Assembly (NCBI RefSeq): GCF_037975245.1
Contig: NC_092562.1
Span: 19,314,054 to 19,378,053, forward strand
Origin: Apostichopus japonicus
Lineage: Eukaryota > Echinodermata > Holothuroidea > Aspidochirotida > Stichopodidae
Direction of reading: 5' to 3'
DNA: 64,000 nt
Within the stretch, counting starts at the first letter, position 1. Each line of letters begins with the position of its first letter. The notes beneath the pieces are model-generated. The model saw nothing but the letters and a program-made list of their open reading frames with translations. It was not told where the DNA came from and did no database searches. Positions 13,810 to 64,000 of this stretch are shown here, piece by piece. The position numbers and the translations under genes are program-made.

Positions 13810-16005
13810 CTATGCAGGTACTAGTCCGTATATATACATTTTACCCGAACTATCGGTAACTATCATGAGCTTCTCCTCCCCATCTACTACGGATGTGGTA
13901 ATGCACATTGCCTCTTCATCAACTGGCATTGATGTTAATAATTGCCGACCATCTCGACTGTATTGTGTTAGCACAGTGTTCAGCTCCATATCATCATTCC
14001 ATAACATGTAGATGAAACCTCCCGTACCTATGCACACACTGTAAGGTTTCACGTCAGCTCCACTTAGATTTGGTTTGGTGAATTCATACACCACCTTACT
14101 CCCTGAAGTCACCATGGTAACTGCATATGAGGTCCTACCAACATACTCACAGATCAGAAGATTACCGTCATGGACAGTAATATCACTTGCTACACTGATT
14201 ACATCAGGTAGTACTATGATGTGACTGTAATTCAGCTGATAATCAAATGCATACACTTCTCTGCTGTTAGTACCAACAATGATTTCATTCTTGGCGGGAT
14301 TCGTGGTAACAGATAAAACATACCTACCCTCTGGCCAGGGCTCATCCATATTACTGATGTTCTTCTTTTGGTAAGAAGAGTAAGAAATATTATAAATACC
14401 GATTTCATCCGGTATGCAAACTGTAATGACATTGAACCCCGACAAATTACAACAGTAACGCTCTGGCCGAACACTAAATCTCTTATTTCTATTTAAAACA
14501 TTCTGATTTAATATTTCTCCTTTCATGTTAATGGCAGTGATGTGTGATTCCTCTTGTGATACCATACCAGTCATAACGATATTACCATTGCTACTACTTG
14601 TCATACCGTTGATCCAGTAACCTTTAGCTTTGATTCCCGCAACATCAACAACAGACTCTGCGCTTTCTGTAATTACAACTTTGTCAGATATAACTTTTGT
14701 TATATCACTGATGACAAAATCAGATAAAGATTCTAACTCTGGATATTCTTGTTTCATTTCTTCGATCATAGGTTCACTTGCTGCTCTTATGTAAGGAACA
14801 CACTGTGCGTCTGTCCAATCGTCATTGCATGCAAGAATGGTAGAAGACGTTGCTGATAAGTTTTCGAACCGTTTAATAAGTTGCTTACATTTATTTAGTA
14901 TTTCTTCACATTTGTTTTTGTTTTGACTTGTAAGAATATCTTTAGCTGTTGTCAAGGTCTTGAAATTACTTTCTAACTTCCCGAGTTTTTTAAAGAATTC
15001 ACCCTCCGTTTCCTTACAATTGTCCTTAAATTCTTCCAATTCCTGGTCATATTTTACATCGGTAATTGTCATATTTTCTTGATGTTTCATGATCAATCGG
15101 TTCATTTCCTCTTCATGTTTAACAGTTATTTCACGTTTTTCACATCCTCTTCTTTTTTCTATGTCAGCAGCTCGTTTGTCACGTTTATCACTACATTCAG
15201 CAAGTTTATCCTTTGTTTTCTTTGCCTGTTCCTCGTGTTGACTTATCAACAACAATGTCTTTTTTATAGCATTCTCATTCAATTTTACTAGCGCCATTTG
15301 AACCTTCTCAGGTAACGCATATAGTTTATTTTTATGCTTGCTTAGTTCCGCGAGGTTCCGATTCAGTAATGTCCTTTCCTTCTTGGCTAGATGAGTCACA
15401 TCTATGAGATCATGACCTTTGTGCTGACTGTAAGTGCAGACTAAGCAAACCGGTTCATTTTGGCATGTACCACAGCACAATTTGGCTGGTTCTTTGATAT
15501 GAAAATGGCACCTGGGATCTTCCGTCATTGCAGCTATTTCCTCCATGGTCAGGTTCTTAGCTGCCATATTTTCCAATTTCAGAGTGCTTGGTTGGTGATC
15601 AGTAAACATTTTATTACTGATATGAACCTTGTAACATTCGTCACATAAAAAATCTCTACATTTAAAACAGTAGGCCGAACATACCACATCCTTTGAACAG
15701 CTCACACACTGCTTCAAATCTTTCTTTTCGAATGATTTACGCAATTCTATGAACTCGAGCACACTCTTCATATGAAAATCAGTCTTAAAGCCGTCCAATC
15801 CATCCTCTGGTATACAACATCGCTGTTTACAAAGTGGACATTCTATTGTCCCATCATGGCTGGCTTGAATAACTGTTCTCAAGCAATCGTTACAGTATCG
15901 ATGAAGACATGGTAACAGTTTCGGCTCATTAAATTGATCCAAACAAACAGAGCACTTGAAGAAGTTTTCTGTCAGGTCTTCTATGAAAGGGTTCCAGGTA
16001 GCCAT
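13810..16005 (-). CDS. TRIM-like RING / B-box / coiled-coil / beta-propeller protein, copy B (731 aa, intact)
   Basis: This is a single uninterrupted 731-residue frame with no intron. A C3HC4 RING has ligands C18, C21, C33, H35, C38, C41, C56 and C59. B-box1 uses C100, C103, C113, C116, C121, C124, H128 and H137. B-box2 uses C166, H169, C178, C181, C187, C190, H195 and H198. Residues about 200-395 are charged and Lys/Glu-rich and form the coiled coil. Residues about 430-731 contain repeated blade-like stretches (for example GNIVMTG, NEIIVGTNSREVYAFD, GFIYMLW, EKLMIVTDSSGKMYIYG) typical of an NHL/WD-like propeller, as in TRIM56- or TRIM71-like proteins. No filamin domain is seen. The first ATG of the frame is used because all copies begin with the same MA(T/S) context. 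Expected role: ubiquitin E3 ligase. Ligand and cellular role are unknown; innate immunity is an inference from the family. Confidence 0.93.
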   Translation of the reverse strand: MATWNPFIEDLTENFFKCSVCLDQFNEPKLLPCLHRYCNDCLRTVIQASHDGTIECPLCKQRCCIPEDGLDGFKTDFHMKSVLEFIELRKSFEKKDLKQCVSCSKDVVCSAYCFKCRDFLCDECYKVHISNKMFTDHQPSTLKLENMAAKNLTMEEIAAMTEDPRCHFHIKEPAKLCCGTCQNEPVCLVCTYSQHKGHDLIDVTHLAKKERTLLNRNLAELSKHKNKLYALPEKVQMALVKLNENAIKKTLLLISQHEEQAKKTKDKLAECSDKRDKRAADIEKRRGCEKREITVKHEEEMNRLIMKHQENMTITDVKYDQELEEFKDNCKETEGEFFKKLGKLESNFKTLTTAKDILTSQNKNKCEEILNKCKQLIKRFENLSATSSTILACNDDWTDAQCVPYIRAASEPMIEEMKQEYPELESLSDFVISDITKVISDKVVITESAESVVDVAGIKAKGYWINGMTSSSNGNIVMTGMVSQEESHITAINMKGEILNQNVLNRNKRFSVRPERYCCNLSGFNVITVCIPDEIGIYNISYSSYQKKNISNMDEPWPEGRYVLSVTTNPAKNEIIVGTNSREVYAFDYQLNYSHIIVLPDVISVASDITVHDGNLLICEYVGRTSYAVTMVTSGSKVVYEFTKPNLSGADVKPYSVCIGTGGFIYMLWNDDMELNTVLTQYSRDGRQLLTSMPVDEEAMCITTSVVDGEEKLMIVTDSSGKMYIYGLVPA

Positions 16006-16170
16006 GTCGATGAAGGTTGTTAACTCTCACTTGATAAACTGTACTCAGTTACGTCACAATCTATGAAAGAGTTCAGGAAAAGAAAGGGTTTAACAAATTA
16101 TTATTTATCCCTGTATTTCATAAAATATGAATGGAAATACGAACATACATGCATAACCCATTCAAAATGG
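16006..16170 (-). promoter_or_regulatory. 5' flank of TRIM copy B with CRE/ATF-like site
   Basis: TTACGTCA at 16049-16056, 43 bases upstream of the ATG, in the same conserved block as in the other copies. The TATA-like position is degraded (TTTCATAAAAT). Confidence 0.35.
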
Positions 16171-17770
16171 ACTAGCCACAGAAGTGCTAAAGTATTTCTG
16201 GCCAGGGTTCAAGTTCAACACGTCCTTCATCTCCAAACTTTTGGAGAAGGTTTTGTATGCACGAATTGAGCGACACTAGCATACCAATGCCCTCCACGAA
16301 CAGTTTGGACTTCAGGACATTGCATCGAAGTAGTTTGAGTCGATATCTGTCCAACAGATTTCAAACAGTTTGCATTAATATTGAGCTTTCGGAACCATTA
16401 CCTCTAGAGTTTGGCGTTCCACAGGAATCGGTGCTTTGGCTTCAAGCTTTTCACTATGTACACAATCGTACATAGTCACAGCTTGAATTACCATGTCTAT
16501 ACGAATGACACACACATTTACCTTCATTCAAGCCTTTTACTTAATATCTCTGCTAGTAGATGTGTTTTGGAGAATATTGAATATTAAAACTTAAAATGAA
16601 TGGTGACAAGATTGAAGTAATCATAACCATAATCTGAAAAACCTTCCCGATGTATTGTTGAGGGTGGAAGGAGTATCGATTAAATCCGTATTAGACAGTC
16701 AAAACTTTTGAGTTTATCTTGATACAGCTCTTAATATGGATGCACATGTAAACCATATTTTTAATCTCTCTGAACACAGTTCTGGACAGAGCACTTAAAT
16801 CACCCTTTAATATGTGCAATCGTTGTGGTTCTACATGAAGGGAATATCTGTAGTAACTGCAGTCGGTTAATAGTCTGTTTTAATGTATTAAAGTTCTAAC
16901 TCAATTTAATCAGGCTTAAAGATTAAACTTGATTTAAGTTGACTACTTATTCAACCAGCATACAACTGACTTACATAGCCCAGCTGTTAGTATTAAGAGC
17001 TCTTGTACTCTATGAGATACATGGATCCACATACCACATGTGAAATTTATCAAACGTTTGATTTATTTTATGCTTTAATACTTTGACCTCTGCTGAGCTC
17101 AAGTAACCTTTGACCTCCACTGTAAACAACGTACCAGTGTTACTCAAGATGGAGCCACATACCAAGTTCATCGAATTTTTTATTCGTTTAGTTTGAAAGG
17201 TATTCAGACTTTGACCTCTGCAGAAAACCCTTCAGTTCTTAAAATAAATGAAGGGGTTCCACATGCATATGGAGTATTAAATCCATCAAAGTTCTACTTT
17301 TGGAGTTCAACCGCTTTAACAAGGTTTTCTTTAAATTCTGTTGACCTCAAGTGACCATTAACAATAGCGTTGTTCACTCAATAAGGTGGATTCAAACACC
17401 AGGAACGCAGTAAACCCAAGCTTTAATTTTGATCGTGTACATACAAGGTTTTCAAAATGTGACCTCTGGTGAACTCAAATAAGATTTTGTGCTTGTACTT
17501 GCTTAGTTACCAGTATATCCACAGGCAAAGAATACAGATCACAAATGACCTTTGTCTTCCTCATCTAAAAATAGGATTCTTCTTCTTAAAAGTTGCATCC
17601 ATGTATCTCATTGGAGTTCACCCACTGTACAGTTCTTGAGTTATCGTGTTTGCAAACCAAGGTGCTACACACATACACACTACCATCATCGCAAAGATTC
17701 CTTTCGCCTTCGGCAAGGAATGAAAAAATGAATGACAACAAATCAATCAATAATCAATCAATCATTGAAA
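16170..17770 (+). mobile_element. CR1-like LINE 3' half, unit U2
   Basis: Across shifting frames the plus strand keeps recognisable non-LTR reverse transcriptase pieces: an ISKLLEKV-like block near 16230, LEFGVPQ(E)SVL near 16410 and a decayed Y-(T)-DD region near 16500, all with stops and frameshifts. A non-coding region at about 17030-17560 follows, made of degenerate repeats containing TGACCTCTG or CTTTGACCTC. The end is a hairpin at 17697-17721 and a tail of ATGA/ATCA units. The layout (RT, 3' UTR, hairpin, short tandem tail) fits the CR1/L2 group. It lies at the same place in every block, so it was inserted before the array duplicated. Confidence 0.75.
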
Positions 17771-18375
17771 TGCATACGTTTTATCTTTGTGTGTAGAGCT
17801 ATGCTGAGTTTTCAGAGTGTTTCTAAATGAGAATAGTAATGACAATTAACTATATTCAATAAAACTTAACTATCTGTTAGTAGTGTTGAATTAAATATAA
17901 TGCAACTAATGTGAGCAATGAGATCAAAACTAATCCATCATTTTTCGCATAAGTAATGTCATTTAAAACATTACAACATTTTTATGGAACTATACAAAAT
18001 GTCCAATCTAAATGGCCCTATGTGATTTCCATATTTTAAAAGCTCTCCCTTTTCATAACTACGAGACACCAGAGGCCTAACATGATTTTGAGCAATATGA
18101 CTTTGATACTTGGGCAGTCGATCTACCTCAGTAGCTATATATAGATAATATATGTAACGGCTGGTTCAACAACTAATCTTACCAATTATGATGTTCTTTT
18201 CCTCGTGATCTCTAAATGCACAACCTTCTTTATAATCTTCTGATCAGAATATGCCGTTTTTCCTCACCGTATGACTGCATATATAATATATTGCATGAGT
18301 GAACAGAGATATAGAGTGACAGAAAGTAACAAATTACCAATGTAATTTTCCCAGCTGCTTTGAAAAATGAAACAC

Positions 18376-18425
18376 GTTGCGCTTATGCCCTATGGGTTTC
18401 GGCAACGTAAGAAGAAGAACAAGAG
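18376..18425 (+). mobile_element. 50-bp retroposon end with 11-bp target duplication, U2 only
   Basis: About 50 bases ending in GTAAGAAGAAGAACAAG-type A-rich sequence are inserted between two copies of AAATGAAACAC (18365-18375 and 18426-18436). U1, U3 and U4 have one copy. The variable-length duplication and A-rich tail fit a very short 5'-truncated retroposon. Confidence 0.7.
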
Positions 18426-18885
18426 AAATGAAACACATGTAGCTCCCCTGTAAAGTGGTTTGTCACGCAGTGCAGTCTGTGGATAGTTTATCATGAAAGA
18501 CTTTGGATGTGCTAATATTTGGGCAGTAGATATACCCTATTCTCAATACACTTGATAGTTCAAAGGTAGCATATATAAATGCAAATGTTTTTATTGACTT
18601 AATTACACACTAAATATGCTCTCTAGTTCTACAGAGAAGTTCTCACTGGCTAAACGCTACCCATCACTGGATAGCTGGTTAGCTATTCATGGCACCATCA
18701 ATTTGCCGTATCATATTGTTATTTTTGCTGCATACGTATATGTCTTATTTTACGAAGATATAAACAGAGTCGGATTTTTTCGGAGGTCGGTCGCCATTTT
18801 TATTGCTGGCCTGAAAGAGGTCGCTCTTTACTTTTACGTGAATTACATTATGATCGCAATCTCAATACATTACACATGACAGTGC

Positions 18886-19080
18886 CTTAAGTTTCATTTC
18901 ATTTTATTTTCATTATATATTTGATCCAATCAAAAAGCAGTATACAAACAACAAAGTAGGATCAGGATCTACAAAAGGAAACCAAATTCCTGTAGCCCGG
19001 AGGCTTGTACACCCTTACAATAAGAGACCTAGAACTAAAATAAATATAAAAATATATATATAAAAATAAATAAATATATA
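18886..19080 (-). mobile_element. Retroposon 3' end, U2 only
   Basis: 195 bases replace the short sequence found in the other units at this point. On the minus strand it ends in AATGAAAATAAAATG with an AAATG-rich tail, and the other end is rich in TTTAT. It looks like a 5'-truncated LINE or SINE. Confidence 0.5.
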
Positions 19081-20759
19081 TTGTAACTTGTGAACAGACC
19101 GCTTTACTGAGTAGAAAACAATTTCCGTATGCTGTTTATGTGAGGCCTAAAGGGTCCAAAATTGCCTCAATTAACCCAATTATTACACCATTTATTGTAG
19201 AATCGGGGAGTTTAAGTTTGTCTCCCTAAGCCTATACAGACGTACAATAGAGGGCTCCGTAATTTATAATCAGCAATTATGCTCGTGTATTTTAACCATC
19301 CAACGTTTTAGTGTATTCATCGTTGATAAGCCAGAGTTATTAAAAAGGAACTTATAAGCAAATATCCGCTTTTGAAGACTATTTATGAAGACTTTCAGGT
19401 GTACGCTCGGTTTAAAGTTACTAGTGTAAGGCCCGGCTTAACTTATACCTGGAACTATCAAAAATAAGCTTGCAATAACATATCAAATATATGTTCTCCT
19501 GCTGCTTTTTGGCACTTTACCTGTGATAGGAGAACAGTCGGGCGGATTAATGTACACTGTTATAGGAGTATGCCACCCAAAGATCACCTTTGCTCTGTAC
19601 AGTTAATTATTTATTCAAAATATGGGTAACCAGCAAGCGCATGTTTGCGTGCTATGTACGATAGTGGATAGTGTTGTCTTACCAATATATCATGACATTC
19701 CATTGTTTATGTCGTCCACACCGATCGCGTATAGGCGTCCTCTGCGGAATACACTATTCTTCCTTCCTTATGTGTAGGCTACACTACATCATTTCCGGTA
19801 ATGCATGAATGCAGAAAATGTATCGGGCAGGCACAATATTCTAATAGTAACGCTCACACCATTACATGATTATCTTATATCTAACCATCCCTATAAATAT
19901 GGGTTCATTGAAAAAAACTTATTAAAAGAACTCATTCCTACATCTGATGAAATCGGTTTAACAGCTTCTTAGGTCGCCTTCTCACGTAGTCCGGGGAATA
20001 TCTTTCCATATGAACTTGAGCTTCTGAAAACTAACCATCTAAGAAAAAGCTCTTAAGTGTATGAAAATTTCGTTGGAAAGTTTATCCACAGGACATTTGT
20101 CGTTTCAAATTAATCTGCTAGTAACTTTCGAACATTTATTTTAAAGTTGGTCATTTGTATTATCTGGTTAGGGAAGTATTGTGATGACACGTTCGGAATA
20201 ACGTGGTCAGTTTGAAACAAAGCAGAGCCAAATAAATAAATATTAACGCATGAAATTGGGAAAAAAATATTCACAGCTCTTGACATTTTCGCATGCAGTG
20301 ACCGCTCAGTGATCCGTCACATGAACTATTGACATTTTGCTCACTCAACCGCGCCCTGTGATCTCTGGGGCAAACCAAAATGATTATAAATCTAAAATAA
20401 AAATACAACATTATAAATGTCACGGGTTTCTTAAATTGAACAAAGACTGTGCAAATACAAGGCAATGACTAAAACTTTAGCTTAGTCACAACTGCATTTA
20501 ACTAAAGGTTTTACCTTAAATTTCTTCCTTGCAGTTTTTAGATCCTGTTGGCTAAGTTATGTCGTTCCTTAAAATTTGTTTGTCGTTACTCTTCCTGTTT
20601 TCTGTTTGTTTTAAGTTCCAACTCGGTTTCTTTCCGTTTGCTATGTTTCATTCTACAGTTCATTTGACCTCACTAATAGATCCATAATTTGACTGACTTC
20701 AGATTACTACATCCTCGTTCTGTGAAGTTTGTTTGTTTGTTTGTTCAATTACATTTCTT

Positions 20760-21075
20760 TTTATGACCCTTTTTGGCCGCTTAATAATTAAGCGTTTACT
20801 TTACTTACGTGTACTTATGAATTTGTTCCAATAATCGCTCCCCATCCCAATAGCCCCCCCCCCCAATACACAGATATAAAAACCTCGAAGCACCCCGTAC
20901 CTTTGTTCCCTTTCCATGCATTGGTTATGTTGTGTTAACGTTTATGTATATGTACTGTACAAATATTTTGTTCACCTTTATACAGTTATATCCTTGCATT
21001 ATTTTGTACCTGTACTTACAGTTTATGATGGAAATAAAATGTTTCATTGTCATTTCATTGTCATTGTCACTTGAA
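20760..21075 (+). mobile_element. Retroposon-like 3' tail, U2
   Basis: Same block as 4560-4865, here with extra TTTCATTGTCA repeats at 21040-21070. Confidence 0.4.
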
Positions 21076-22191
21076 TATACTTCACCTTATAGTTAATTTT
21101 CATGCTCTTATTTTCTAAGCTTGGTATCTTTCGGTCCTTTCAATGATCGCATATTGTAGGTCTGGCTTAATTGAATAGCGTTTGCCATTGCATCTCTCAA
21201 CATTGCATTCTAATTGTTAGCAAGATTATTATTTGTAGTACGAAAAAGCAATGAAACAACGTAGCAAAGTTCTCCCCCAACTCGACAATAAATACAACAA
21301 ACATTGAATTGACATTGTGTTGAATCAGGGAGTTTCCATAACAACTCTCTGGCTCAATGTAGAAGCAAAGTTAGAATACTGAATAAGTATTTGTACTTTA
21401 CGCAGAATTTTAGTCTCGACATGTTAATAGTAACAAACAAATACAAACACTTTAGGACAATTTATTGTTTCTTTAGTCAATCAGGATTTCAAGTTAACCA
21501 CTTTTAAAGTATTTTAAAACTCTGGAAAGCGCCGTCGGCTCCTCGGCGCAGGCTATAATGGTTATATTAATCCATTGTTTTATCAATTCTAATGACTCAA
21601 CCAAAACCGTTTCCTGTTCAACTTCAGAACATCCTTGTATGACATTCATCACTACTAGTCAGTGATCAATTTGTAACATAGGCCTATTATAAACACGTAA
21701 TATGAAGCCATAAAATTCTTATGTTCTTCCACTGTATATTGTGTCGCAGTCTGACGAACTCGGTCACGTTAACTGACACACTTTGTTTAAAAGTTCATTC
21801 CCCCCCCCCCCTCCCCAAATTAAGGGTTTTATACAAGAACAACCTGGACGCAAAGCAGCTGTTTTTAATGGTCTATAACATATCCAAATTAATGTTGTGC
21901 CTAAAGTCATTCTTTTAAGCTACATTTTGAGTCCTGTGTTAACGTTTCATCAAGCTGGACAAAGCCATGTAATATATAGGCCACTCACTTGGATGTTCTT
22001 CCAGTCCTTGTATCGAAGAGATGTAGAAATGACCCATTTCGTTCTTGGTTTCGTATTATTAAGCGTTTGAGTGCATATTAATTTGTGTACCTCAAATTTC
22101 ATGTAAGGCTTTAGTAGTAATGCTTATCTCGCCATTCTTGTCTTCATTTCATTTTCTTCTGGTGTGATTTTGTTGAATTATATTTTGTTAC
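21076..22191. other. Intergenic, U2: no gene recognised
   Basis: Collinear with U1 4866-5950. The LTR element begins at 22192 and replaces sequence equivalent to about 5960-6220 of U1. Confidence 0.5.
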
Positions 22192-23278
22192 TGTTACGTT
22201 GGAATGCGAGAGGTCTCGATAATTAATTTAAACGAGACACAAGCCTGGGTTCGTTTCCGTAAGGAACACAGACAGATTGACGAGTCTAGAGATTTTAAAT
22301 GAGAACGTAAACTATATTGAACAATGGATTTCGAACCAACAACAACAAGTGGTAATAACAAATATATAGAAAATTACTCACAAACTTAACAAGATAGGAT
22401 ACACTTTAAAACACGCTGGTCTCTTCCAACGGCGATATCCCACAGCGGCCACGACCTTGATGACGACGATTCTCGGTCCGTTGTACCGCGAAATTCACTG
22501 GTCCTCGACGAAGTTTCTCGCGATCCCAGAAACAGCAGTCACCTTCTTTCCGGCGATGCTCCAAAATAGAAGACGGACTTCCAGCCACAATAGAGTGAAG
22601 CACAAGTCGAACTTCTCGCCGACTAAATATTACCAGAGTCGATCCAAAAATCAGCTTTATAGCCACCAACTCCTGGCGTAACGAACTTCCTCAACGGAGA
22701 CAGAAATTCTTCACCTTCTCCGAAATAAAGACTGAAAAACTGTACTTTCACAGCAAAGTCCTCTTCAAACTTCTGAATGGGAGTGTAGAATCAATCTTGT
22801 TATCGATATCTCAATCCTTCAAAAAATACTGGTAGTTGGGCACTGACGATATATAGTAGAATGATATAATGTGTCGTCGCTTGTATTCGTACAGAAAACT
22901 GAGAAACTCTCCGATCTGGGCGGGCTTTTATACGATTCGCCATGTCAAGAATCATCCAGATCTTTCTCGATACACCTGACCCAGTTTTTCTATTCTTGGA
23001 AGTCCTTTGCATATCTTGCGAACCTTCCAGAGAATCCACGAAGATGCCGTGCACAGCTTACACGCGATTCCACGTAAACCGACGTTAACCCGAGACCAGC
23101 GAGTCATCATAAGGAATACACTAGAACAATCGTGTATTATAACATTCTGACACGGTAACCCGACCTAATTTCTCAAATACTGATTTATCACGTAGGCAAT
23201 TTCAATACTTTCTATATTATAACATTAGGTTCCTTACTAGCAGTGACTAGCGTTAGGCTACAATGGTCCCTCGTAACA
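22192..23278 (-). mobile_element. LTR of a Ty3/gypsy-type retrotransposon (3' LTR)
   Basis: A 1087-bp segment on the minus strand starting TGTTACG and ending CGTAACA, perfect 7-base ends of the TG...CA type. A TATAAAAG box lies at 22925-22932 (minus strand). Immediately upstream on the minus strand, at 23279-23289, is a polypurine tract AAGGGGGAGGG, exactly where the plus-strand primer of a 3' LTR belongs. No second LTR is in the window. Confidence 0.8.
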
Positions 23279-23289
23279 CCCTCCCCCTT

Positions 23290-23752
23290 AAAGGAAAGTT
23301 TGAATGTAATGAAAACTTTCTAATTTCTTACATTCTAGTACATCTTATCAACAAACAAATATTCTATCATAAAATATGTACTTTGTTACACTTGAACAAA
23401 TTTTCGTTAAACATTTATCAAACAACTTTTAAGTTATGCATAATAAATAATTCTGAGTGTTCTTTATACACATGCATAGTGACATTATCTTTGTCTTGTC
23501 ATATATACAATAAATTTATGTGAATCTGGACAAAGCATCTGCCATCACATTGTCTTTTCCTTTTATGTGCCTCACATCAAGATTGTACTCTTGTAAAGTT
23601 AAGCTCCATCTCATTAATCTTTGATTCTTATTCTTCATTCTATGTATGAAAGTGAGAGGATTATGATCAGTGAACACAAGCACAGGGTAGACAGTAGTAT
23701 GCAAATATACATGGAAATGTTGCAGTGATAACAAGAGTGCAAGACATTTCTG
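23290..23752 (-). pseudogene. Ty3/gypsy pol fragment (RNase H), truncated
   Basis: The minus-strand frame 23734-23516, readable back to about 23752, gives the C-terminal RNase H region of gypsy pol: CLALLLSLQHF, then VFTDHNPLTF, then the run ending KGKDNVMADALSRF. The usual integrase does not follow; only about 225 bases separate this from the polypurine tract, so integrase is deleted. The 5' side is cut where host sequence resumes (TTTCTGATGTGC). The copy is dead. Confidence 0.85.
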
Positions 23753-25199
23753 ATGTGCTTATAAACAAGTCGATAATTTCAATAATTTTCGTCAAAATAT
23801 AGGACATGTTAGTGAGACTCTGACTCGACAATTACTATTTAATATGATAAGGAATTTAATCTAAATCATCAAAGTTATCGTCGGGCAACATTTTAACAGT
23901 AGAAAGAACACACGCACACATACTGAGCATAATGTAGACAATAATCTGTTTGTTGTGTAAACAATGGGATGTGAAATATCTTGATGGGGAGATGGACCCC
24001 CCCTCCCCTCCTGTTATATTCCCTCACCCTCAAAACTCTCCTGTTTCGAGGCATATTCATGCTCCGATAAGTAATATGTGAAATTACGAGTGAATTAGCG
24101 AAACACTTTCGTGGCGTATTCCACAGTTGCTCAGGTGTTTAGTTTGCTGGGCTATAATTGAAAAGAGTAAAACTCGAATCATGGGTACAATCTACTTTGG
24201 TTCAAATCTGCAAATGGAGTCATAGTATAGAATGCTTTTAAGTTTATGGTAATACACAATTCCATTTTAAACTATTTAGAACAATTAGGAAAGTAACTCC
24301 TCCAAAAAACATTGATTTGCGTGCTTGGTATCTGGTAAAATTAGTCAAAAATTTGTAAAATGTTTTGGGTACGTAATTGCCAATACAATTGTGTACAAAG
24401 ATAGCATGATAGAACGATAGCCTGAAGACTGCAAATCTCACAAGGCCTTTCATTGGAGACTGACATTAACGAGCCTGAAGGTTGTCCAATCAACTTGAAT
24501 TTTATATCAAGAGAGAGAGAGAATGTTGTCTTGTGAGGTAATCCGAAATGAAGTATTGATTTTTATAATAAAGAGGCTTGGAAAAGAAAGACCCCAAATT
24601 GAAGAACGGATTATTATACATTCTGAAATTAAAATGGCGGAAAGAGACTAAAATAGTCAGTATAGTCTTCCTCTTTAAATAAAACGAACCTAAATAGTGT
24701 TAATCACAACTTAAATTTGATGTTAACAAGATGGATTTATCTATCAATGAAAGAAAGAAAGGAGGAAGTTAATCGGATGAACACTGGCTGAAATATGGCG
24801 TAAGAACGTTTAGCTTTTACAGTGTAGTATTTATGATACATTTTGAATGACGTGTGATTGAGGGCGCTTTGCAGGTCGAAGACTGTTGAGAAATTGTAAT
24901 GATCGACCCCTCCGGCTGCTCATAACTGCAACAAATCGACGTACCCCGCCACCCTTATTTGAGGAAAACTTATCGATGACTATTAACAAACAATGGATGG
25001 GACTGACAGCAAGAAAAGGCAATTTTATGTTATTGTCACTCATCCGCGTAAAACATGATATGACATTTTATTAAAGATTTGCATAGTTACTGAGCATTCC
25101 CGATAAACAAATAGGTCAGTTACATATGCACATGATTCAAAAGACGAGGATGAGGGGGAGGGGGTGGCAAATTTAGAGTTTACGATGGATCAAGTATAT
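23753..25199. other. Intergenic, U2: no gene recognised
   Basis: Collinear with U1 6220-7370 and U3 39190-40670, with a C-rich run near 24000 shared with U3 39437. No convincing frame. Confidence 0.5.
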
Positions 25200-25206
25200 G
25201 CCGGGT

Positions 25207-52860: not shown

Positions 52861-53159
52861 ATGAATCGTTAATTTTACTTACGTTTACTTATTAATTTGT
52901 TTCAATAACCGCTCCCAACCCCAAAAGACCCCCCCCCCCCCCAAGAAAAAGACACATTTACAAAAAACCTCGAAGCACTCCATACTTGAATAAACGGTAC
53001 CTTACAGTTAATTTTCATGCTCTTATTTTCTAAGCTTGACATATTTTGTTCGTTTGAATGATCGCATATTGTAGATCTGGCTTAATTGAATAGCGTTTGC
53101 CATTGCATCTCTCAACATTGCATTCTAATTGTTAGTAAGAAAATGATATGATATTATTA

Positions 53160-53711: not shown

Positions 53712-56700
53712 CGTCCCCGTTTTTCGCGTAGTGGCGAATGTTCACTTTTGGCGAAATTGAGATAATTATTGTTCTTACCTATTTCGAGGGTGAAGAATCG
53801 GTTAAGGCGGGCTAGAAGTTCTAAAAATGTCTAGTTGTTTAGTTATTTCTGACTGATTTTTGACGAATGTCCACCTAAAGCCCACTCTCGTTTTCACAAA
53901 CTGACGAATACTTTAGTCATTATTACCACTCAGTAACACAGCATCACAATTTTACATGCGTTTTTGCATAACGACGAATATTACCCTTTAGAACAAGCCG
54001 AACACAACAACCATGTCAACTAACTGCCATTTGAAAACAACCAGGATTATGGGAAGGTAACATCTTTATTATTTCCACCTCGTCTTTCAATTGATTTATG
54101 AAGCATTTCATACACGATAGTATAACTCATGAAAACAGAATGGCCAGTGGGTCAACAATAATATACCTGAATAGTAGCCTATAGTGTTATGATTGCAGTA
54201 TATTCGATGCCTGTATCTGTTACGCGAGTAGCTATATAAAGTAGACTGGAGTAACGCTATTTATCTCTACTGAATCGGTGTAACAGTGTCGGTACATTAA
54301 ATTAGAGTTGTGTGTAAATGAGGAAACATGCAGTGTAATTCACTGACGGACATTGATGACAATGTTTGTAACTCGTATAAAAATGATGAATATATCACTC
54401 AAATTTTAATTGTGACCGCGATACCTAGACCAAGGTTAATTAATTTAAACCATTATTAGTGTTAGCCTAACCATACCTACGTATTAAAGGATAGGATCCC
54501 TACCATCATAATGAACTTTTATCACCAAGATCCTCCTGATGAACTTATCCCTAAAATATCTAAGTCCATTACCTTGCACGGTACGGGAGTAAATTGGTTA
54601 TTAAAAGTCGTGGCATGGAGCTACTTTGTTGCCAATGTGTAGTGCCACTTGGGATGGTGGGATGGGGGGGGGGGCTGTAATTTAATTATTTAAGTTTCCT
54701 GTCTCCTTTCAATGTGAATGTAAACAGTTCAATAAACAAAATCTAGTATTATGACAAATTGAAACATGCAAACACCAGCTTCAATTTAATATGTAAAGAA
54801 ACGTTAAACATGTAACATCTCCCTAAAGAAGTACGGTTTCTCTTAGCTGTTGGTGGCTTTGCGAGTCATCACGGGCATTGCTCTAACCTAACTGTTAGCT
54901 ACCTTTATCTAGCTTAGTAATACCTAGTTACATAGTTGAAGGTCAAATACTTTTACATGAAATTTTGGAAGGTACTAAAATAGTTTATACTTAAGTAGTA
55001 ACTTTGCTACAAAGGACGAGGGAGGGGAGGGGGGGGGCGTTTAGACCGAATTACTAGAAAATCTGTATAGCAACCTTCAGATCTGACAGAACATTGGACG
55101 TATTCTTTCACAGGCTAAGAATTTCAGGATCACAGGGGAATTTATACCAGAACTTTTGGAAAAATAAACGAAGTATGAACCAGAATATGGACATACAAAC
55201 CAAATGAACATCACCAGACTGATACACCCTCAGCCCTGGTTTCCATACATTTGGATTGTTAACACATACGGTTGCTCGACATAAGAAAGGAGAAGGCATT
55301 TGCTGTTCCAGAACGGAAGTTGCAAGCCACTCGAAGAATCTATGTATTGCAGATATCAAACGTTTAAGTAATCCATGATATTGTGTCTCATTAAGATTGA
55401 AAGGAAAGAATTATAACAAAGGGTCTTTTTCTTGACTTTGCCAAATCAATTAATGAAGGATTTTTTACGATTTATCAAAGACACATGGCTTATTCATTGG
55501 CTGACACAATTTCTTCAAGGATGGTCCAGACAAGTTAGGTTGGATAAAGGGATATCGAAATATCGGAAATAAAGGCTAGTGTGCTTTAGGGGAGAGGGGT
55601 CCATTATCTGCTATATATGCTTATATTATGTACTATATAACTTATATAAATATAAAAATATCAAATTCACACATTTCTGTCACAAAAATATGCCGATGAT
55701 ACTGCTATATCATGCACACTTCCTAAGAGCTCTGTTGAATCTGACCAATGAAATTATCAATTTCTGTAATGATGACATAGTTCCAACATGTGACTACAAG
55801 ACTTTATTTTGTCACCCCAAAATAAAGGAATTTGTTTTGAAAGTAAAACCATATAAAATGAAGGTATCATTTTATCAAGATCGCAACGTATTATAATTGA
55901 GGGATCTGAGGTGGCTAGAACCTCGAAAACTGAGTACTGGGAGTATAGAGCGACGACAGTTTGATCTTGTCTGCAAAACATCAAGGTATTAAAAAAAAGT
56001 ATATTATATAGTATCTAGTGTGGCTTATACGTTGTGTCTTTCTGTAACCAAAAGGCTAAGGAAAATGTTTTCAATAGTATTATTCTACCATGGCACATGT
56101 GATCTATACAGTGCGTGCCTGGCATCATTTTATATTGCCAAAAAAAGCAAAGAATGAAGTTTCTTAAATACAAATCAGCTATATTTAATTTAAATTACAA
56201 TATACTTTTAAAAAAAGCAAATGCTGCTGCAAGACCTGAGTATTAACTTTTGTACGTGTAGATGTATTTTATATGATATCCTATCATCTTAACATTTTTC
56301 TCTCTATTATATCAGTTATTCTTGGACTGTTGGTTGTAGTCTGTTTGTTGTATCGTTTTATGTCTTTAACTTTTGTATGTGTAAATGTGTTTGATATGAT
56401 ATCCTATCATCTTAAAAAATAACCTTTTTTATTAGTTCTTTTTCTTGTTGAGGTATTATATGACTCCTCTCTATAAATTTTATATGTATACTGGAAGGAA
56501 ATAAAAAGAAGGAACATCATACTATAGTAAAACTTGGAAACACTTGATAAATGGCACAGTTGTTTCCTTCTTTAAATCTAAGGATTCACACGAGGTTGCG
56601 TTGGATATTATTAATGGGCATGTGAGCGTAAGATTTTTTTTATATGTATACTGGAAGGAAATAAAAAAAGGAGCAACATACTATCGTACAACTTGGAAAC

Positions 56701-57687
56701 ACTTAAACAATGGTACAGTTGTTTCCTTCTTTAAATCTGACGATTCACACGAGGTTGGGTTGGATATTATGAATGTGCCTGTAATCTTAAGAAAAATGTC
56801 ACATTCCGTTTAAGCGGAGCGTATAGTGAAAACACTTCCAAAACTTTTGAAGGCTACTTAGAAACTATTGTCAGAGACATTTCACGTAATACACTCACTT
56901 GAAAATGAAGAATTGCACACAATTTTCCGTATACTGTGTGCTTCATAAGAATTCCGACTTAACAGATACGCCACTGGAACTATTATTTTTGCAACTGCAT
57001 GCGTTCACATTTCATAACATCCCTTGTCTATATCATACATTGTAGAAAAGGGTGGAGGTTCTTTTAAAATAAATAGGACCCCCTTTCAGCAGCCGGCTCT
57101 CCTTGACCTGCCTACCTCAACATCCCTGTATACCCGACACCATCCATGTCACCCACGAAAAACATACTAAAACACTTACATCCGCCCACAACCCATACAA
57201 ATTCCTTGTCTATTGTATAAATTGCAACAAAACGTGAGCGTTCTTTTAAAAATTAATAAGACCAATGTACCACCCCTTCGATTATTTTCTTCTTACGTAA
57301 TGTGATTCTACCTACCACCTCCCCTCTTCCCCCATGTGACAGTGAACATTCACGGTGTACCCTATGGCTACTACACAAACGTGACGGATACTAGTCTGTG
57401 ACAGGACGAAACTTCAAAATTTAGTTCTAGCATAGTGACGAATGTGTGACGAATGTCTAAAATTAACTGCAAATGACATGATATAACGACGAATATGTTT
57501 ACACTAAAATTACTACTTTGTAAGAATTTATTCGATCAGCAACAAATATGACAACTCAAAGTCTTTTTGTTATATTTAAAATATTGACAACTTTCGGTAC
57601 AAAAGATCCTTTTTCAATTACGCTATACTAAAGTCAAAATGTGAAAATCTTTAGAGCGCGTTTTCTCAAAACTCTCAAAACATTTTA
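53712..57687. mobile_element. 4-kb unclassified insertion, U4 only
   Basis: About 3.98 kb with no counterpart in U1-U3. Host sequence resumes at the GACGGGGGGATCATTG block near 57688, and about 15 host bases are lost at the junction. Both ends carry GACGAAT motifs (53862, 53903, 53973; 57437, 57448, 57488), including a 14-base match ATAACGACGAATAT at 53968-53981 and 57483-57496 in direct orientation. Inside are several direct repeats. No transposase, RT or integrase frame is recognised; open frames at 55579-55896 (plus) and 55108-55359 (minus) match nothing I know. Confidence 0.6.
56478..56800 (+). repeat. Two tandem copies of a 159-bp unit with an open frame through both
   Basis: The units start near TATATGTATACTGGAAGG (about 56480 and 56640) with a period of 159 bases, exactly 53 codons. 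A frame at 56544-56813 crosses both, giving NGTVVSFFKS(K/D)DSHEV twice. Other direct repeats nearby are at about 56243/56365 and 57015/57190. Confidence 0.75.
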
Positions 57688-60470
57688 GACGGGGGGATCA
57701 TTGAAAAAGTTTTGCACATTTGATTTCTCTACATATGAAATTATTTTGCTCGTTTGCACATTCTACTCAATATCAGACATTTGTTGTAATAGCCAGTATT
57801 CATTTATCTCTACCAACCAATATTGCAGTGGATAAAAAGATTGGTTTCTTTTACAAAGTATAAGTATTCCAAAACTTGTGCCAGAAATTGTTATCTTACT
57901 CTTCTGGTTAAATTACATTATACTCCTATAATATTATGGATAGGGAGATAGAAGAAGGCGTGGTAGGGTAGGGGTAGGGTAGGGGCCGGGTAGGGGTGTT
58001 TTTTATGGTAGCCATCGCTCATGATTTACCCAGTCTATTCCTAAAGACATCAATGTTTTGTTCTTAAAAGAGAGGAGGGTAGGGAGGGCAACAGGGTTGA
58101 GGGGGTTGAAACTTGAAAGTCCTAGTGTTTTAGATACATTACAAATCAATAGTTCAATAGTTGTTTTGGGTACATAAGTTCATTATCAGGGCTTGCGGGG
58201 AAAAGTCCCATTCCTAATTTTGTGAAGATTATAAATCAGTTGAATTATATCATTTTAATTCGGAGAGAAGCTGTTGCAATGCTACTTGGTATGCATCAGT
58301 TTGCGCCTGTACAGTCAGTGAATAAATATATGAATTAATGTTTCTATTTCTCTTCCAAGTTTTGTGATGGGTATTACCATAAAGCCATTTCTCACATCTG
58401 TTTCAGGTTATTCTTTGTAAAAGGAAACAAAAATAATTTGTCGTCAGTATGAGGTTTGTCCTGAGCCTTTTCTCGTATCAGAGAGTTTATGCAAAGGCCG
58501 TGCGAGTATTACAAACGTGATTAGTTGTCATTGGATGTCCTCAATCACTGATACAGGTTTCAGCTATTTAGAGACATCTTTTTCTTTTAACACATTATTT
58601 CTCAAAATCTTCAGATAATCAATTTATATGATATTCTGTTGAAAATTTCAATCGGTTTGTATTTTGAGAGAATCTTTGAACCAATGTGATTAAACCTGTA
58701 TAGTATGCTAAGTTTTCTTGTAAAGCTGAAGCAGGCATTGGGTGGGTATCTTAGTGCCATTCATGCTAATTCTGTAATATTCACAGATATATGGATACCC
58801 CTCTCTCTTTACAAAGAGATCTGTATATTATCAAGCCATTCTGTGTTGGTTCGTTACATTTAGAAATTGAGCAAGTTCCAAACCTTTTAGTTTGTTGGAA
58901 AAATTTTATTTTGACCCTTGATTAGTAATCTGTACTGTGCATCTTGTGAGGCGGCATATTCTATAACTACTGTGGGATGCTAGAAAACGTCAGATACTTA
59001 CAGACGGACTTGTAGTACTCCAGTCTGTATTCGTATTAGAGTCCATACTCAGGTACATTTTGCCATACTTGTACTCATGACGTTGCACTAGTACTCAGGA
59101 CTTTGTACTTGTACTCATACTGTAGACTTTGTACTCTCACTATCGGCCTGCTTACAGAAAATCAGTATTATGATCGAACTTCCTTAGACATTTCTCTCGG
59201 TATTTTATAGACCAATCCAAAGAAGAAATAAATTGCTGCATGAAAATCCCCAGTGTTTCAGTCTTCATGGGGATATTTGTTTTGAACAATTTTAATCAGT
59301 TTAAGATGCGCTTTGCATATGGCTTGCAAGAGCGTGGGACAAACAGAATGGTCCATTTAATATATTTTCAAAATAGGGGGTATTGAATAATCAGTATTCA
59401 AATATAAGCAGTACTGTGATTAATTAACTTACTTTAATACTCTGGCTTGATTTAAGGCTTATTATCAAAACAGTGTATCTGAGTTTCACAGGCTCTTTCG
59501 TTTGTTTGTTGTTTTTTTTATAAATAAATTCATATCCTATATCTCAATTGCATATAACATATGTGTTGTTCTGTTTGTTCCACAAAGCAACCATTGCCTA
59601 GCAACGTTACCTAAAGTGTCTCATTCTGAATTGAAAAACAGAAAATTTCAAGTTTCCTCAGCTTGTTTCTATCTCTTCTTCTTTCCTGTATTTTGCTGTT
59701 GATATTTGTCAGTTATTTAGGATAAGTTCCAAATGAATTATTGTAATTGCCAATAAGTTTAGAATATCACATTTTTTCGACCATTTATGAAAGTGTGTAT
59801 GAGTGGATCCACAATTCCATCTTCTTGTCTTCTGTCATTTTCTTTATCTTCTTCGAGTGTGAGCAGTGAAATTGTTGGTAGAATTCATATGATTGTACAT
59901 TTTGTACCTAAGATTACTTTTTTTTATTATTACATTATTACCATTAGTTAACATATAAACAGATATATCATACTTTTGGTTACAAGTTTTGAGAAACATG
60001 TAAAAACAGTTAAAACGGAAAATTGGCTCTTGTGATTTTCATGCTTTCTTTCCCCCCCCCTTTCCCCTCCCATTTCTTTGGGCCGGGGCGGGTAACATAT
60101 AGGTTATCCCGTACTAACCAGAATATATTAATTCCTTAACTCCTGTCGGACCCATCCTCCATTTACACATTAAATCAAATCAATCATTTCAGATAGTCAG
60201 CTACCAGAGCCCCAAAGTTTGGATACCGGAGATGAACAATTTCACTCTGATATAAACATCATCTAAACGATGTATACTGAACAAACTCACGGTGGCCTAT
60301 AATTTCGTGCTTTTACAACATATTTTAATTATTGTACTAAATTCACTCTACTTATTTGACTATTTGACACAGTACCTAAGAAGTATCTCTCTTGTTCGTT
60401 TGGTACCCCACAACACCCCCCCCCCCCAACTGTTGGGTAATATTTTTTGTTGCTTTGTTGAAGCGAGTAA
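57688..60470. other. Intergenic, U4 after the insertion: no gene recognised
   Basis: Collinear with U1 7980-10830, with a short G-rich array at 57962-57998 and GTACTC repeats near 59020-59145. Confidence 0.5.
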
Positions 60471-60473
60471 ATC

Positions 60474-60820
60474 TTGCTATAAAAAATCCTCCATTTTTTC
60501 AGCAGTCTTTCAAGTAAGGCTATTTTTACTGCTTCAAGTGATCCGTTCGAATGCTCCTGCAACACAGTGGCGTGCATAACTGAAAAGTGGGAAGGGAGAA
60601 AACATGTATCTACTCCTCTTTCTAAAGTGGGGTGGCGTCGAACTTCACTCCACCCCTCCTCTGATTATGACACTGCATATACACTAGAGTTTCCATTTTA
60701 AATCTAAGAAGTATCTCTCTTGTTCGTTTGGTACCCCCACCAACACCCCCCCCCCACCCTAACTGTTGGGGAATATTTTTTGTTGCTTTGTTGAGGCGAG
60801 TAAATTCAATATAACATCTG
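60474..60820 (+). repeat. Local duplication in U4
   Basis: 60474-60700 repeats 61411-61640 (segment ending ACACTAGAGTTTCCATTT), and 60702-60750 repeats 60374-60420 (AAGAAGTATCTCTCTTG). The pattern is a direct duplication of a block of about 1 kb whose first copy has lost its middle. Confidence 0.75.
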
Positions 60821-62227
60821 TAATAAAGAAGTGTACTGGACAGCGACTGAACTTTATTGTAAAACTGGACAGCGACTGAACTTTATAGTCAAACAGGCAC
60901 TTCTTTCAATAAAGATATGGAAATTCGACATATACAGTGAAATCAGTAAACGTAACATTGCAATACAAATGATACCTTATCGACTGACCACCGACGGCTA
61001 TTAGCCGTCTATAAAGTCTATCACCGTGGTAATCACCTAACCTAAAATTGTACCCATAAACTATCAGAACTCCATAAAATAAATGTTTATGCAGCAGGGT
61101 ATGAAAACCCGCCCGCTATCTGCCGGTCGCACTTTGCGATCACCAGAACCTGAATATTTCATGTTCAAACGTTTAATGTATCCATATGAATACAATACAA
61201 TCAGGAGAACAGACCGCAGGCGAAAATTGCCAAATTGGAGAAAACTGCCACGTTTGCTTAAATTGTGTCATTTCTAGGGGATAATTTGCAAAACCCATCT
61301 TTTTGGTAGTTTTATATGGTTTTATAAAATGTTCTTATCTGCTGTCCCAACTGCCCTCTCCTATGTATCCTTACCAACCCCCACAACAAAGCGTATGTTT
61401 GTTAGTTACTTTGTTATAAAAATCATCCATTTTGTCAGCAGTCTTGTAACTTTTCAAGTAAGGCTATTTTAACTGCTTGAAGTAAAATGTTTGCACTCCT
61501 GCAACACAGTGGAGTGCATAACTAAAAAGTGGGAAGGAACAAATCATATATCTACTCCTCTTTCTAAAGTGGGGTGGCGTCGAACTTCACGCCACCCCAC
61601 CTCTGATTATGACACTGAATATACACTAGAGTTTCCATTTAACATTATGCTGCATAGACAGTGGTTACATAATAAGCATGTTAGCTATCTGACCCTTTCT
61701 TTAATATATTCATATTCTTTATTTCAATGTAAACTAATGTAAGGTTCACTTCAATCTCATTGTCTTATGTCCCCGCCGACTATAGCCTTCAAGGAAGGCC
61801 GCCAACGAACCGGATCCTTCACACGGCTATTCTGAACGTCAAAAGGACGGATATCTATACGTCCCAATACTCTTTACTGTGATCCAACAGTTATAAATAT
61901 AGGTTACATTTTCTGTCTTAACTTTACACTTAGAAGTTTGTAAACTGGTAACTTGGTAGAGAAAGACGGACTTGAAATTGAATCCCAAAAACTCAGTCTC
62001 GGCTATAGAACTGTTACAAATTATCTTTGAACACCATGTGCACAAAATTACACTAACCTGTGCGCAATATACGGTATTAAGAAACGAAGTAGCCTATAAG
62101 CATTTCGTTCTCGCGGTACTGTGGTTACAGCTATACGTAAAAAAAGACCTCCCTTCGGAAAAACATGTACATTGTACGTCCATCTTCGTTGGGTGCAGAT
62201 ATTTTTAAGAAGATACAAGAAAACAGA

Positions 62228-62228
<1 letters not shown>
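60821..62228. other. Intergenic, U4: no firm gene; small ORF region
   Basis: Collinear with U1 10860-12186. Holds the doubled GGACAGCGA unit near 60836-60895 and the 78-codon version of the small ORF at 61972-62208. Confidence 0.5.

Positions 62229-62277
<49 letters not shown>
62229..62277. repeat. TA microsatellite, U4
   Basis: About 24 TA units at the same site as in the other units. Confidence 0.9.
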
Positions 62278-62283
<6 letters not shown>

Positions 62284-62722
62284 TTCATATATCATATATC
62301 ATAAGAGGCTATTTTAGATGGAGTAACATTATATAGCAAGAGTTGAAATCCAGAAATTATCTGTAATGCTATATACCACATTGTATCACGAAGCCGATAT
62401 TGCCTATACCAAAGGAATACTACGCCAACCTTGTCTAGAAAATGTGTCAGTCAGGCTGTTGAAGAAGTATTTATTCATAACAAATGAACATACCGATATT
62501 AACGTAAATTAACCCCTATATAGAAGGAAGGTCTTTATGATGGATATATTAAGATGTGTAGATAAACTAAGTAGAAACTAATTATTACCAATTATATATG
62601 CACTAACAACTCTAGGAAATTAGGATTGTTATATGTTCCTATGTGTGTAAAACTCCAGTCGAACAGTTACAGCAACGATAACAACCGAACATGTGTCTCG
62701 TAACTCGCGATACCATTATGTT

Positions 62723-64000
62723 TTAATATGTAATTGCTTTTAAGGGCAATGCAGGTACAAGTCCATATATAAACATTTTACCCGAACTTTTGGTAACTAT
62801 CATGAGTTTCTCTTCCCCGTCTACTACGGATGTGGTAATGTACCATACCTTGTCTTCAACTGGAATTGATGTTAGTAATTGCCGACCATCTCGACTGTAT
62901 TGTGTTAGAATAGTGTTCCGCCACCCCATAGCATCCCATAACATATAGATGAGCCCTGTCTTGTCTATGCACACACTGTAAGGTTTTACGTCAGCTCCAC
63001 TTAGATTTGGTTTGGTTAATTTATACACCACCTTACTCCCTAAAGTCACCATGGTAACTGCATATGAGGTCCTACCCACAAAGTCACAGATCAGAAGATA
63101 ACTGTCATGGACAGTGATGTCACATGAATACCTGATTACATCAGGTAGTACAATGGTGTGACTGTAATTCAGCTGATAATCAAATACATACACTTCTCTG
63201 CTGTTAGTACCAACAATGATTTCATTCTTGGCGGGACTCGTGGTAACAGACCGCACAAACCTACCAAAGGCTGACCACGTCTGAACCATATCACTGATGT
63301 TCTTCTTTTGGTAAGAAGAGTCAGAAATATTATAAATACCGATTTCATCCGGTATGCAAACTGTAATGACATTGCACCCTGACAAATTACAACAGTAACG
63401 CTCTGGCCACACCCTGAATCTCTTATTTCTATTTAAAACATTCTGATTTAATATTTCTCCTTTCATGTTAGTGACAGTGATGTGTGATTTATCTTTTGAT
63501 ACCACACCAGTCATAACGATATTACCATTGCTACTACTTGTCAAACCAGTGATCCCGTAACCTTTAGCTTTGATTCCCACAATATCAACGACAGACTCTG
63601 CGCTTTCTGTAATGACAACTTTATCAGATGCAACTTTTATTATATCAGTCATGAAAACATTACATAAAGATTCTAACTCTGGATATTCTTGTTTCATGTC
63701 TTCGATCAAAGGTTCACTGGCTGCTCTTAGGTCGGGGACAAACTGTGCGTCTGTCCAATCGTCATTTCATGCAAGAATGGTAGAAGACGTTGCTGATAAG
63801 TTTTCGAACCGTTTAATAAGTTGCTTACATTTATTTAGTATTTCTTCACATTCGTTTTTGTTTTGACTAGTAAAAAGATCTTTTGCTGTTGTCAAGGTCT
63901 TGAATTGACTATCTAACTCCCCGAATTTTTTAAAGAATTCACCCTTCGTTACCTTACAATTGTCCTTAAATTCTTCCAATTCCTGGTCATATTTTATATC
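62723..64000 (-). pseudogene. TRIM-like gene copy E, nonsense codon before the propeller, stop lost (5' end outside window)
   Basis: The frame enters at 64000 in the coiled coil (DIKYDQELEEF) and stops at the complement of 63767-63769, where the Cys codon TGC found in the other copies (C393 in B) is TGA through one base change. The same frame then continues without another stop through the whole propeller to 62723. The usual TAG after LVPA is changed to TTG, adding eight residues (LPLKAITY) before TAA. It shares the one-residue-longer loop and several substitutions with copy C, so C and E form a subgroup. As read, it would yield a RING/B-box/coiled-coil protein without a propeller, if transcribed. 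A possible AATAAA lies at 62470-62475 on the minus strand. Confidence 0.85.

Follow-up and report, generated by a model that had tools for sequence, protein, structure and literature searches.

The stretch considered here, called the window throughout, comprises 64,000 nucleotides of the sea cucumber Apostichopus japonicus (NC_092562.1, our contig C2, positions 19314054-19378053, in the 672 Mb assembly of 35 contigs that was searched), and it holds five copies, A to E, of one single-exon gene of the tripartite motif (TRIM) type, all on the minus strand. The front end of the predicted protein carries a RING, two B-box-type zinc fingers and a presumed coiled coil, and a predicted six-bladed propeller follows at the C-terminus. 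An earlier note on this DNA, made from its letters, had described the copies as diversifying in the propeller with the RING/B-box half frozen, and had likened this to recognition domains under diversifying selection, such as the SPRY loops of TRIM5. We find the observation to be real and stronger than it was stated, and its interpretation is supported by the analysis of the wider family. Of the 731 residues, 69 are not shared by the intact copies B and D, with 8 differences in residues 1-200 (4%), 21 in 201-408 (10%) and 40 in 409-731 (12.4%). The counts made by eye, about 8 in the first 200 residues and about 41 in the last 323, thus hold to within one residue, and the clusters of difference that had been named sit where they were placed, in alignments of B with D and of the window copies. 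The frozen front half holds for the RING and B-boxes and fails for the coiled-coil part, where B and D differ nearly as much as in the propeller; the B-D ratio of nonsynonymous to synonymous rates (dN/dS) is 0.50 in the coiled-coil part and 0.78 in the propeller.

The five copies belong to a large family. The genome search with copy B gave 62 matches and that with a member of a second subfamily, on contig C17, gave 61, the best 61 candidates being scored in each case. By hand count the family has at least 86 loci, namely 39 close to B, copy C of the window, 44 on C17 and 2 at C20:28.7 Mb. The 39 close loci lie on C2, C20, C11 and C16 and represent 38 places plus a copy split in two; copy C, absent from the list of the B search, was added by hand. 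The C17 subfamily (at least 44 loci, at 10.49-11.94 Mb and 3.34-3.67 Mb) shares the overall architecture of the close copies and varies at largely the same positions, and its members are 50-54% identical to B where the B search lists them. Among the full-length close places, 30 of 34 are free of in-frame stops, and the codon analyses used these 30 open-frame copies (the close set). Left out of it were L005, L010, L011 and L023, with one in-frame stop each, the partial L033-L036, the two-piece copy at C20:10665570-10667765 and copy C. The last residues are altered in four members of the close set (no stop in the fetched stretch of L024, different ends in L013, L028 and L032), and the propeller was trimmed at residue 725 for the tree comparison and later analyses. 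The C17 set consists of 24 of the 44 loci, and a further alignment, A2, of 26 of the 30 close copies and 4 C17 copies. Columns gapped in B were omitted; residues 513-515 are present in 7 of the 24 C17 copies.

The front end is that of a TRIM protein. PF00097 (RING) is above its cut-off in B and D and is matched in all 30 members of A2, and the best solved match of the RING is TRIM56 (5jw7, E 5e-22), followed by TRIM2/3. PF00643 (B-box) is found in 30 of 30 A2 members at E<=1 and stays below its curated cut-off in B (Table 1) and D (18.5 bits). The eight putative zinc ligands of the RING are invariant in the close set, as are those of the second B-box, and those of the first are invariant save residue 128 (H/N). 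At E<=1, the Pfam matches for B and D include neither a SPRY/PRY nor a NACHT family, and no NHL repeat family is among those matches or among 25 of the 50 families for A2, where a weak match to the WD40_CDC20-Fz profile occurs in 23 of 30 members; an NCBIfam profile search gave nothing useful. We also observed that six front-half sites (46, 193, 204, 216, 324 and 389) score as positively selected, with posterior probabilities (PP) of 0.957-0.996, and that three of them (193, 204 and 216) sit around the end of the second B-box.

Along the protein, the proportion of differing synonymous sites (pS) in the close set is even, at 0.103, 0.122 and 0.111 for residues 1-204, 205-408 and 409-731, and the corresponding nonsynonymous proportion (pN) is 0.036, 0.054 and 0.101, so that dN/dS rises from 0.33 through 0.42 to 0.90. 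It could be argued that the front half has been homogenised by gene conversion, its low divergence then owing nothing to selection; the trees of the two halves do conflict, and a few pairs have a lower pS in the front, such as L003-L007 with 0.026 against 0.083. However, front and propeller hardly differ in mean pS, and pS between B and D, 7.2%, matches their divergence of 7.6% across 1.5 kb upstream (several longer flank alignments were unused, their identity being near 0.5, probably from insertions). Gene conversion as the cause of the low divergence was rejected on these two grounds and seems extremely improbable, and because of them the low divergence of the front half is put down to purifying selection and not to recent homogenisation.

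The variation in the propeller follows a six-fold order. In the close set, residues 409-731 contain 42 of the 50 positions with the highest entropy in the whole protein, and most of the top-entropy positions of the propeller fit six repeats (464/466 and 481; 513/515 and 531; 562/564 and 580; 605/607 and 622; 653/655 and 670-675; 698/700 and 718-720), each with a variable pair ahead of the predicted strand A and then, 17-20 residues later, another variable spot between strands B and C. The pair flanks a middle residue that varies less, the mean entropy being 2.32 bits for the outer positions of the triplets, 0.33 for the middles and 0.61 for the propeller, and a score for the six triplets, devised after the pattern was seen, exceeded all of 3000 shuffles (p 0.0003). 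The entropy profile is autocorrelated at lags 2 and 45-49. The C17 subfamily varies at the same sites: the 20 top sites of the close set have a mean entropy of 2.22 there, against 0.93 elsewhere (Mann-Whitney U test, p 1.7e-10), and the top 20 sites of the two sets have 10 in common, against 1.5 expected. At 25 hand-picked variable sites, the 30 close copies carry 28 distinct combinations.

D-A and B-C loops lie on one face in propellers generally, a point stated for WD40 repeats in PMC1805685. Two AlphaFold runs on the propellers of four window copies gave low-confidence models with 20 and 22 strands (DSSP) in broadly agreeing places, the second model having its strands in blade order. In Foldseek searches, with 50 matches listed per model and TM-scores by query length of 0.23-0.53, proteins that we take to be propellers from their titles or from general knowledge predominate, and the list for the second model includes the NHL domain of NHL-2 (8suc) and PknD (1rwi). 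With the faces taken from the local strand assignment of this second model, the D-A and B-C loops are more variable than the A-B and C-D loops both in the close set (0.98 against 0.46 bits, p 0.0014) and in C17 (1.49 against 0.80, p 3.4e-6), and the excess persists without residues 506-525. The D-A/B-C face with its strand ends makes up 150 of the 271 classed residues. Of the 30 sites with the highest entropy, 29 lie there, on one predicted face and not scattered through strands. Of the codons selected at PP>0.95 (see below), 17 of 20 classed ones lie on this face with a single tree, 11 of 11 with segment trees and 8 of 8 in C17; the 21st single-tree site, residue 440, is outside the classed part. 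From these models, the variable sites are likely to lie on one face of the propeller.

Table 1. Features of the window, in window coordinates; residue numbers are those of the 731-residue protein, and invariance refers to the 30 close copies.
Feature	Position	Strand	Residues	Remarks
Tandem array	1..64000			unit about 15-17 kb with a single TRIM copy each; gene spacings 15.0, 15.0, 17.1 and 16.8 kb
Copy A, front part in window	1..999	minus		whole copy is L005; single in-frame stop at codon 496
Copy B	13810..16005	minus	1-731	intact single-exon TRIM-type open reading frame, 731 amino acids
Copy B RING	15829..15954	minus	18-59	PF00097 37.7 bits, cut-off 21; eight putative zinc ligands (from the C3HC4 pattern)
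Copy B first B-box-like zinc finger	15595..15708	minus	100-137	ANCHR-like B-box, 15.8 bits, cut-off 27 (weak)
Copy B second B-box	15412..15510	minus	166-198	PF00643 22.0 bits, cut-off 24.1
Copy B presumed coiled coil and linker	14782..15393	minus	205-408	assigned by position
Copy B propeller region	13813..14781	minus	409-731	predicted six-bladed
Blade 1 hypervariable triplet	14608..14616	minus	464-466	465 invariant
Blade 1 hypervariable B-C turn	14554..14565	minus	481-484	
Blade 2 hypervariable pre-strand-A segment	14461..14475	minus	511-515	
Blade 2 hypervariable B-C turn	14413..14415	minus	531	
Blade 3 hypervariable triplet	14314..14322	minus	562-564	563 invariant
Blade 3 hypervariable B-C turn	14266..14268	minus	580	
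Blade 4 hypervariable triplet	14185..14193	minus	605-607	
Blade 4 hypervariable B-C turn	14140..14142	minus	622	
Blade 5 hypervariable triplet	14041..14049	minus	653-655	654 Pro invariant
Blade 5 hypervariable B-C turn	13981..13998	minus	670-675	
Blade 6 hypervariable triplet	13906..13914	minus	698-700	
Blade 6 hypervariable B-C turn	13846..13854	minus	718-720	
Copy C	28769..30968	minus		frame broken at about 29917-29931; two open reading frames, 382 and 345 amino acids
Copy D	45914..48109	minus	1-731	intact single-exon paralogue of B, 731 amino acids
Copy D propeller region	45917..46885	minus	409-731	
Copy E, back part in window	62723..64000	minus		whole copy is L023; single in-frame stop at codon 393
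G-rich repeats	7747-7844, 26303-26415, 53496-53595; 8248-8358, 26785-26827, 41594-41636, 57962-57997			

Positive selection at the variable sites was measured in three ways that need no tree. The five clusters named from the window copies (38 codons) give a dN/dS of 2.07 (codon bootstrap 1.42-2.99) when measured on 28 close copies, B and D excluded, and the other 279 propeller codons of the same copies give 0.76 (0.61-0.96), so that the diversifying selection proposed for these clusters stands in copies that had no part in naming them. When sites were chosen by their entropy in C17 and measured in the close set, dN/dS was 2.19 (1.47-3.15) for 20 sites and 1.46 (1.01-2.05) for 40, with 0.71-0.75 in the rest of the propeller; in the reverse direction, the 20 sites chosen in the close set gave 1.42 (1.08-1.90) in C17. 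In fifteen non-overlapping sister pairs the values were 1.36 for the 30 C17-chosen sites, 0.90 for the rest of the propeller and 0.39 for the front. A home-made grid site model with site-specific alpha and beta, cut at PP>0.95, found 21 of 317 propeller codons of the close set when the propeller tree was used and 11 of 317 when each of seven segments had its own tree, compared with 6 of 408 in the front; in C17 it found 8 of 312 propeller codons and 0 of 403 front codons. Allowing omega (dN/dS) above 1 improved twice the log-likelihood (2dL) by 891 in the propeller (530 with segment trees) and by 32 in the front.

Relaxed constraint on a dispensable propeller, in a family with many young pseudogenes and without positive selection, would agree with the dN/dS of 0.90 across the propeller, with several copies being broken and with a global propeller omega of 1.11 that is not different from 1 (2dL 2.5). 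Such relaxation does not predict dN/dS of 1.5-2.2 at the C17-chosen sites against 0.71-0.75 around them, 2.07 against 0.76 for the clusters, or a six-fold order in the variation, and it was rejected on the strength of dN/dS above 1 at independently chosen sites; we regard it as very improbable. Local hypermutation at the variable codons would be expected to raise pS there, and pS does fall with distance from the 30 most variable codons, from 0.252 at these codons themselves to 0.136 up to two codons away and 0.089 further off. However, the counting of multiple hits in saturated codons may explain part of this rise, pS is 0.114 in the named clusters against 0.109 elsewhere, and most of the triplet middles, which lie between hypervariable neighbours, are near-fixed in the close set, so hypermutation seems highly improbable.

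Considering these findings, we think it probable that the family, with its 86 or more loci, is a germline repertoire of TRIM E3 ligases whose binding faces have diversified, a constant front being joined to a variable propeller. Several results weigh against this reading. Three of the five window copies (A, C and E) are broken. The two AlphaFold models have a mean pLDDT (predicted local distance difference test) of 39.6 and 39.4 and a pTM (predicted template modelling score) of 0.41 and 0.35, and in the assignment of faces strand A2 and residues 455-463 were placed by hand. At lags 17-18 the autocorrelation of the entropy profile does not reach p<0.01. In C17, 3 of the 6 triplet middles are above the propeller mean of 1.02 and thus not clearly conserved, so the C17 pattern is one of variable regions, with less strict pairs. 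The interval of dN/dS includes 1 for the 30 C17-chosen sites in the close set (1.54, 0.99-2.33) and for the 30 and 40 close-chosen sites in C17 (1.24, 0.87-1.73 and 1.29, 0.93-1.75). For the D-A/B-C face as a whole, the close set gives a dN/dS of 1.15 (0.90-1.45) and C17 gives 0.84, the strand middles (25 codons) have 0.90 (0.40-2.03) in the close set, and 3 of the 20 classed selected sites are on the other face, which has 0.55 (0.37-0.83) in the close set; this split suggests that only part of the D-A/B-C face is driven. A selection signal is present in the front itself (2dL 32.2), and the downstream flank of B and D differs by 17% across 500 bp, above their pS. Finally, the front and propeller trees reject each other (approximately unbiased test, p 3.6e-6 and 6e-5), and with the front placed on the wrong tree as a control, the positive sites rose from 6 to 17 of 408. 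Because the trees conflict and the pairwise pS of the two halves correlates weakly (Spearman 0.25, 435 pairs), exchange between paralogues is taken to be real, and since such exchange makes false positives, the single-tree site lists are upper bounds.

A scheme can be envisioned in which a family of TRIM-type E3 ubiquitin ligases, encoded by single-exon genes, has expanded in tandem and evolves by birth and death. The constant RING, the two zinc fingers and the presumed coiled coil would serve catalysis and assembly, and the six-bladed, NHL/WD-like propeller would bind the target. Duplication, some exchange between paralogues and selection would have diversified the D-A connection and the B-C turn of every blade, all on the same face, with the framework between them kept, so that one binding face carries about 25 variable positions, and the front end would then ubiquitinate whatever that face holds. 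Judging from the sequences, the role of such a repertoire is most likely in immunity or defence. An E3 repertoire for endogenous targets, such as gamete, developmental or self-recognition partners, driven by internal conflict or by specialisation after duplication, would rest on the same sequence evidence, nothing in the analysis ties the family to infection, and 28 distinct combinations in 30 copies also fit specialisation. The same sites, however, change repeatedly in two diverged subfamilies, which suggests continuing pressure over one-off specialisation, and the sea urchin immune genes induced in coelomocytes, by ultraviolet B (UVB) rather than infection in that study and maybe other genes than these, include many TRIMs (PMC13043383); we judge endogenous targets unlikely.

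The variable face might also read RNA, each copy another sequence, for example viral RNA, as the NHL top face binds RNA (PMC9070667, PMC9634614) and the corresponding predicted face is the one that varies here. In Brat, LIN-41 and Mei-P26 that top face is positively charged (PMC9070667, PMC9634614), whereas the net charge of the 25 hand-picked variable sites, counting those sites only, ranges from -7 to +6 with a mean of 0.13 in the 30 copies, unlike a standing positive patch; this spread would fit varied protein partners better than an RNA patch of that type, and an RNA-reading repertoire seems quite unlikely. If the E3 repertoire does face non-self, we would tentatively go further and suggest, as a possibility, a germline 'antibody-like' library of E3 ligases, grown to many dozens of loci, with an unchanging catalytic frame and a hypervariable six-fold propeller face of about 25 residues, that tags foreign proteins for destruction in echinoderms, the D-A/B-C face being a general paratope of beta-propellers.

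Some further features of the window and family were observed. In several members one stop or frame break interrupts an otherwise well-kept frame, at codon 184 in L010 and L011 and elsewhere in L005 (codon 496), L023 (codon 393) and copy C (window 29917-29931), much like pseudogenes of recent origin or null alleles that still segregate. Near-identical pairs 16-27 kb apart, at C2:13.73-13.78 Mb and 14.56-14.58 Mb, are L003/L004 (pS 0.002), L006/L012 (pS 0.005) and L010/L011 (equal search score and a common stop at codon 184); L003-L010 and L004-L011 resemble two occurrences of a single block about 27 kb apart, which may reflect a very recent duplication, a conversion or an assembly duplication. 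G-rich short tandem repeats (35-nucleotide unit, GGGTA-like runs) recur at seemingly corresponding places in the tandem units. The window has one other open reading frame of at least 120 codons with a start codon, of 131 codons on the strand opposite to D (multi-exon genes were not searched for), and 0 Rfam matches. Elsewhere, C29:14745-31219 carries five COX1 pieces with TGA codons on a contig other than the presumed mitochondrial contig C35, and these may be a nuclear mitochondrial copy or an assembly fragment. The COX1 of C35 itself makes sense when translated with code 9, AAA giving Asn at positions where Asn is conserved, as would suit an echinoderm.

In mostly open-access literature, by titles and abstract openings, we found no report of a hypervariable propeller face in echinoderm or other invertebrate TRIMs. 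For Strongylocentrotus purpuratus, 140 genes annotated as tripartite motif-containing are cited, and TRIM genes of sea urchin coelomocytes are reported to be induced by UVB (PMC13043383); passages of that paper hold no selection analysis of paralogues and no variation of a propeller face. Repertoires of TRIM paralogues with a diversifying recognition domain are already known, in fish B30.2 proteins, and what is new here is a predicted propeller as the recognition domain, in an invertebrate without adaptive immunity of the vertebrate type. Vertebrate TRIM56 and TRIM-NHL genes are few and conserved. The present family resembles them (TRIM2, 3, 32 and 71 among the latter) in its RING match and, as predicted, in a six-bladed C-terminal propeller and in binding by its top face (PMC9634614). 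The nearest TRIM parallel is found in the finTRIMs of teleosts, discovered as virus-induced transcripts, which likewise form a large clustered family with near-identical RING and B-box and a recognition domain that is selected and recombines, but in fish and with B30.2 (PRY-SPRY) in place of the propeller (PMC2657112). The comparison with the TRIM5alpha SPRY domain is right in kind, as there too diversifying selection acts in the ligand loops of a TRIM E3, although in another fold and in one gene across primates, not a repertoire of paralogues (per PMC2657112). A closer geometrical match comes from HET-D and HET-E, NACHT-WD40 NOD-like receptors (NLRs; NWD genes) of the fungus Podospora anserina. 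On the modelled top face of their WD40 domain, selection has acted on codons 7 and 9, to either side of the conserved codon 8 of the d-a loop, and on codons 25 and 27, to either side of codon 26 of the b-c turn (PMC1805685). The geometry of the variable sites here closely tracks that of this family for non-self recognition, in that variable D-A residues come in pairs that enclose a conserved one (clearly so in the close set), B-C spots follow, and family members exchange sequence. The distance from codon 9 to 25 is 16 there, and here the B-C spot lies 15-18 beyond the later member of the D-A pair.

The differences are equally clear. The near-identical WD40 repeats of HET-D and HET-E are exchanged among themselves, whereas the six predicted blades are mutually diverged, and the B-C spot, paired in the fungus, is a single site or a run here and not always a pair. 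The fungal proteins are NLRs without RING or B-box, and ours is an animal E3 ligase for which no NACHT is listed. Because the architecture differs in this way, we read the likeness as convergence in use, a close match in working to a group of which the TRIM family is not a member. If this is true, the per-blade rule, a pair around a conserved residue and a spot 17-20 residues on, could find propeller immune receptors in any genome, and the family would supply a large natural collection of binding faces already mounted on an E3 scaffold. The solution of two spots per blade would then have arisen independently in fungal NLR propellers and in these TRIM proteins, making the D-A/B-C face a predictable paratope in innate immunity.

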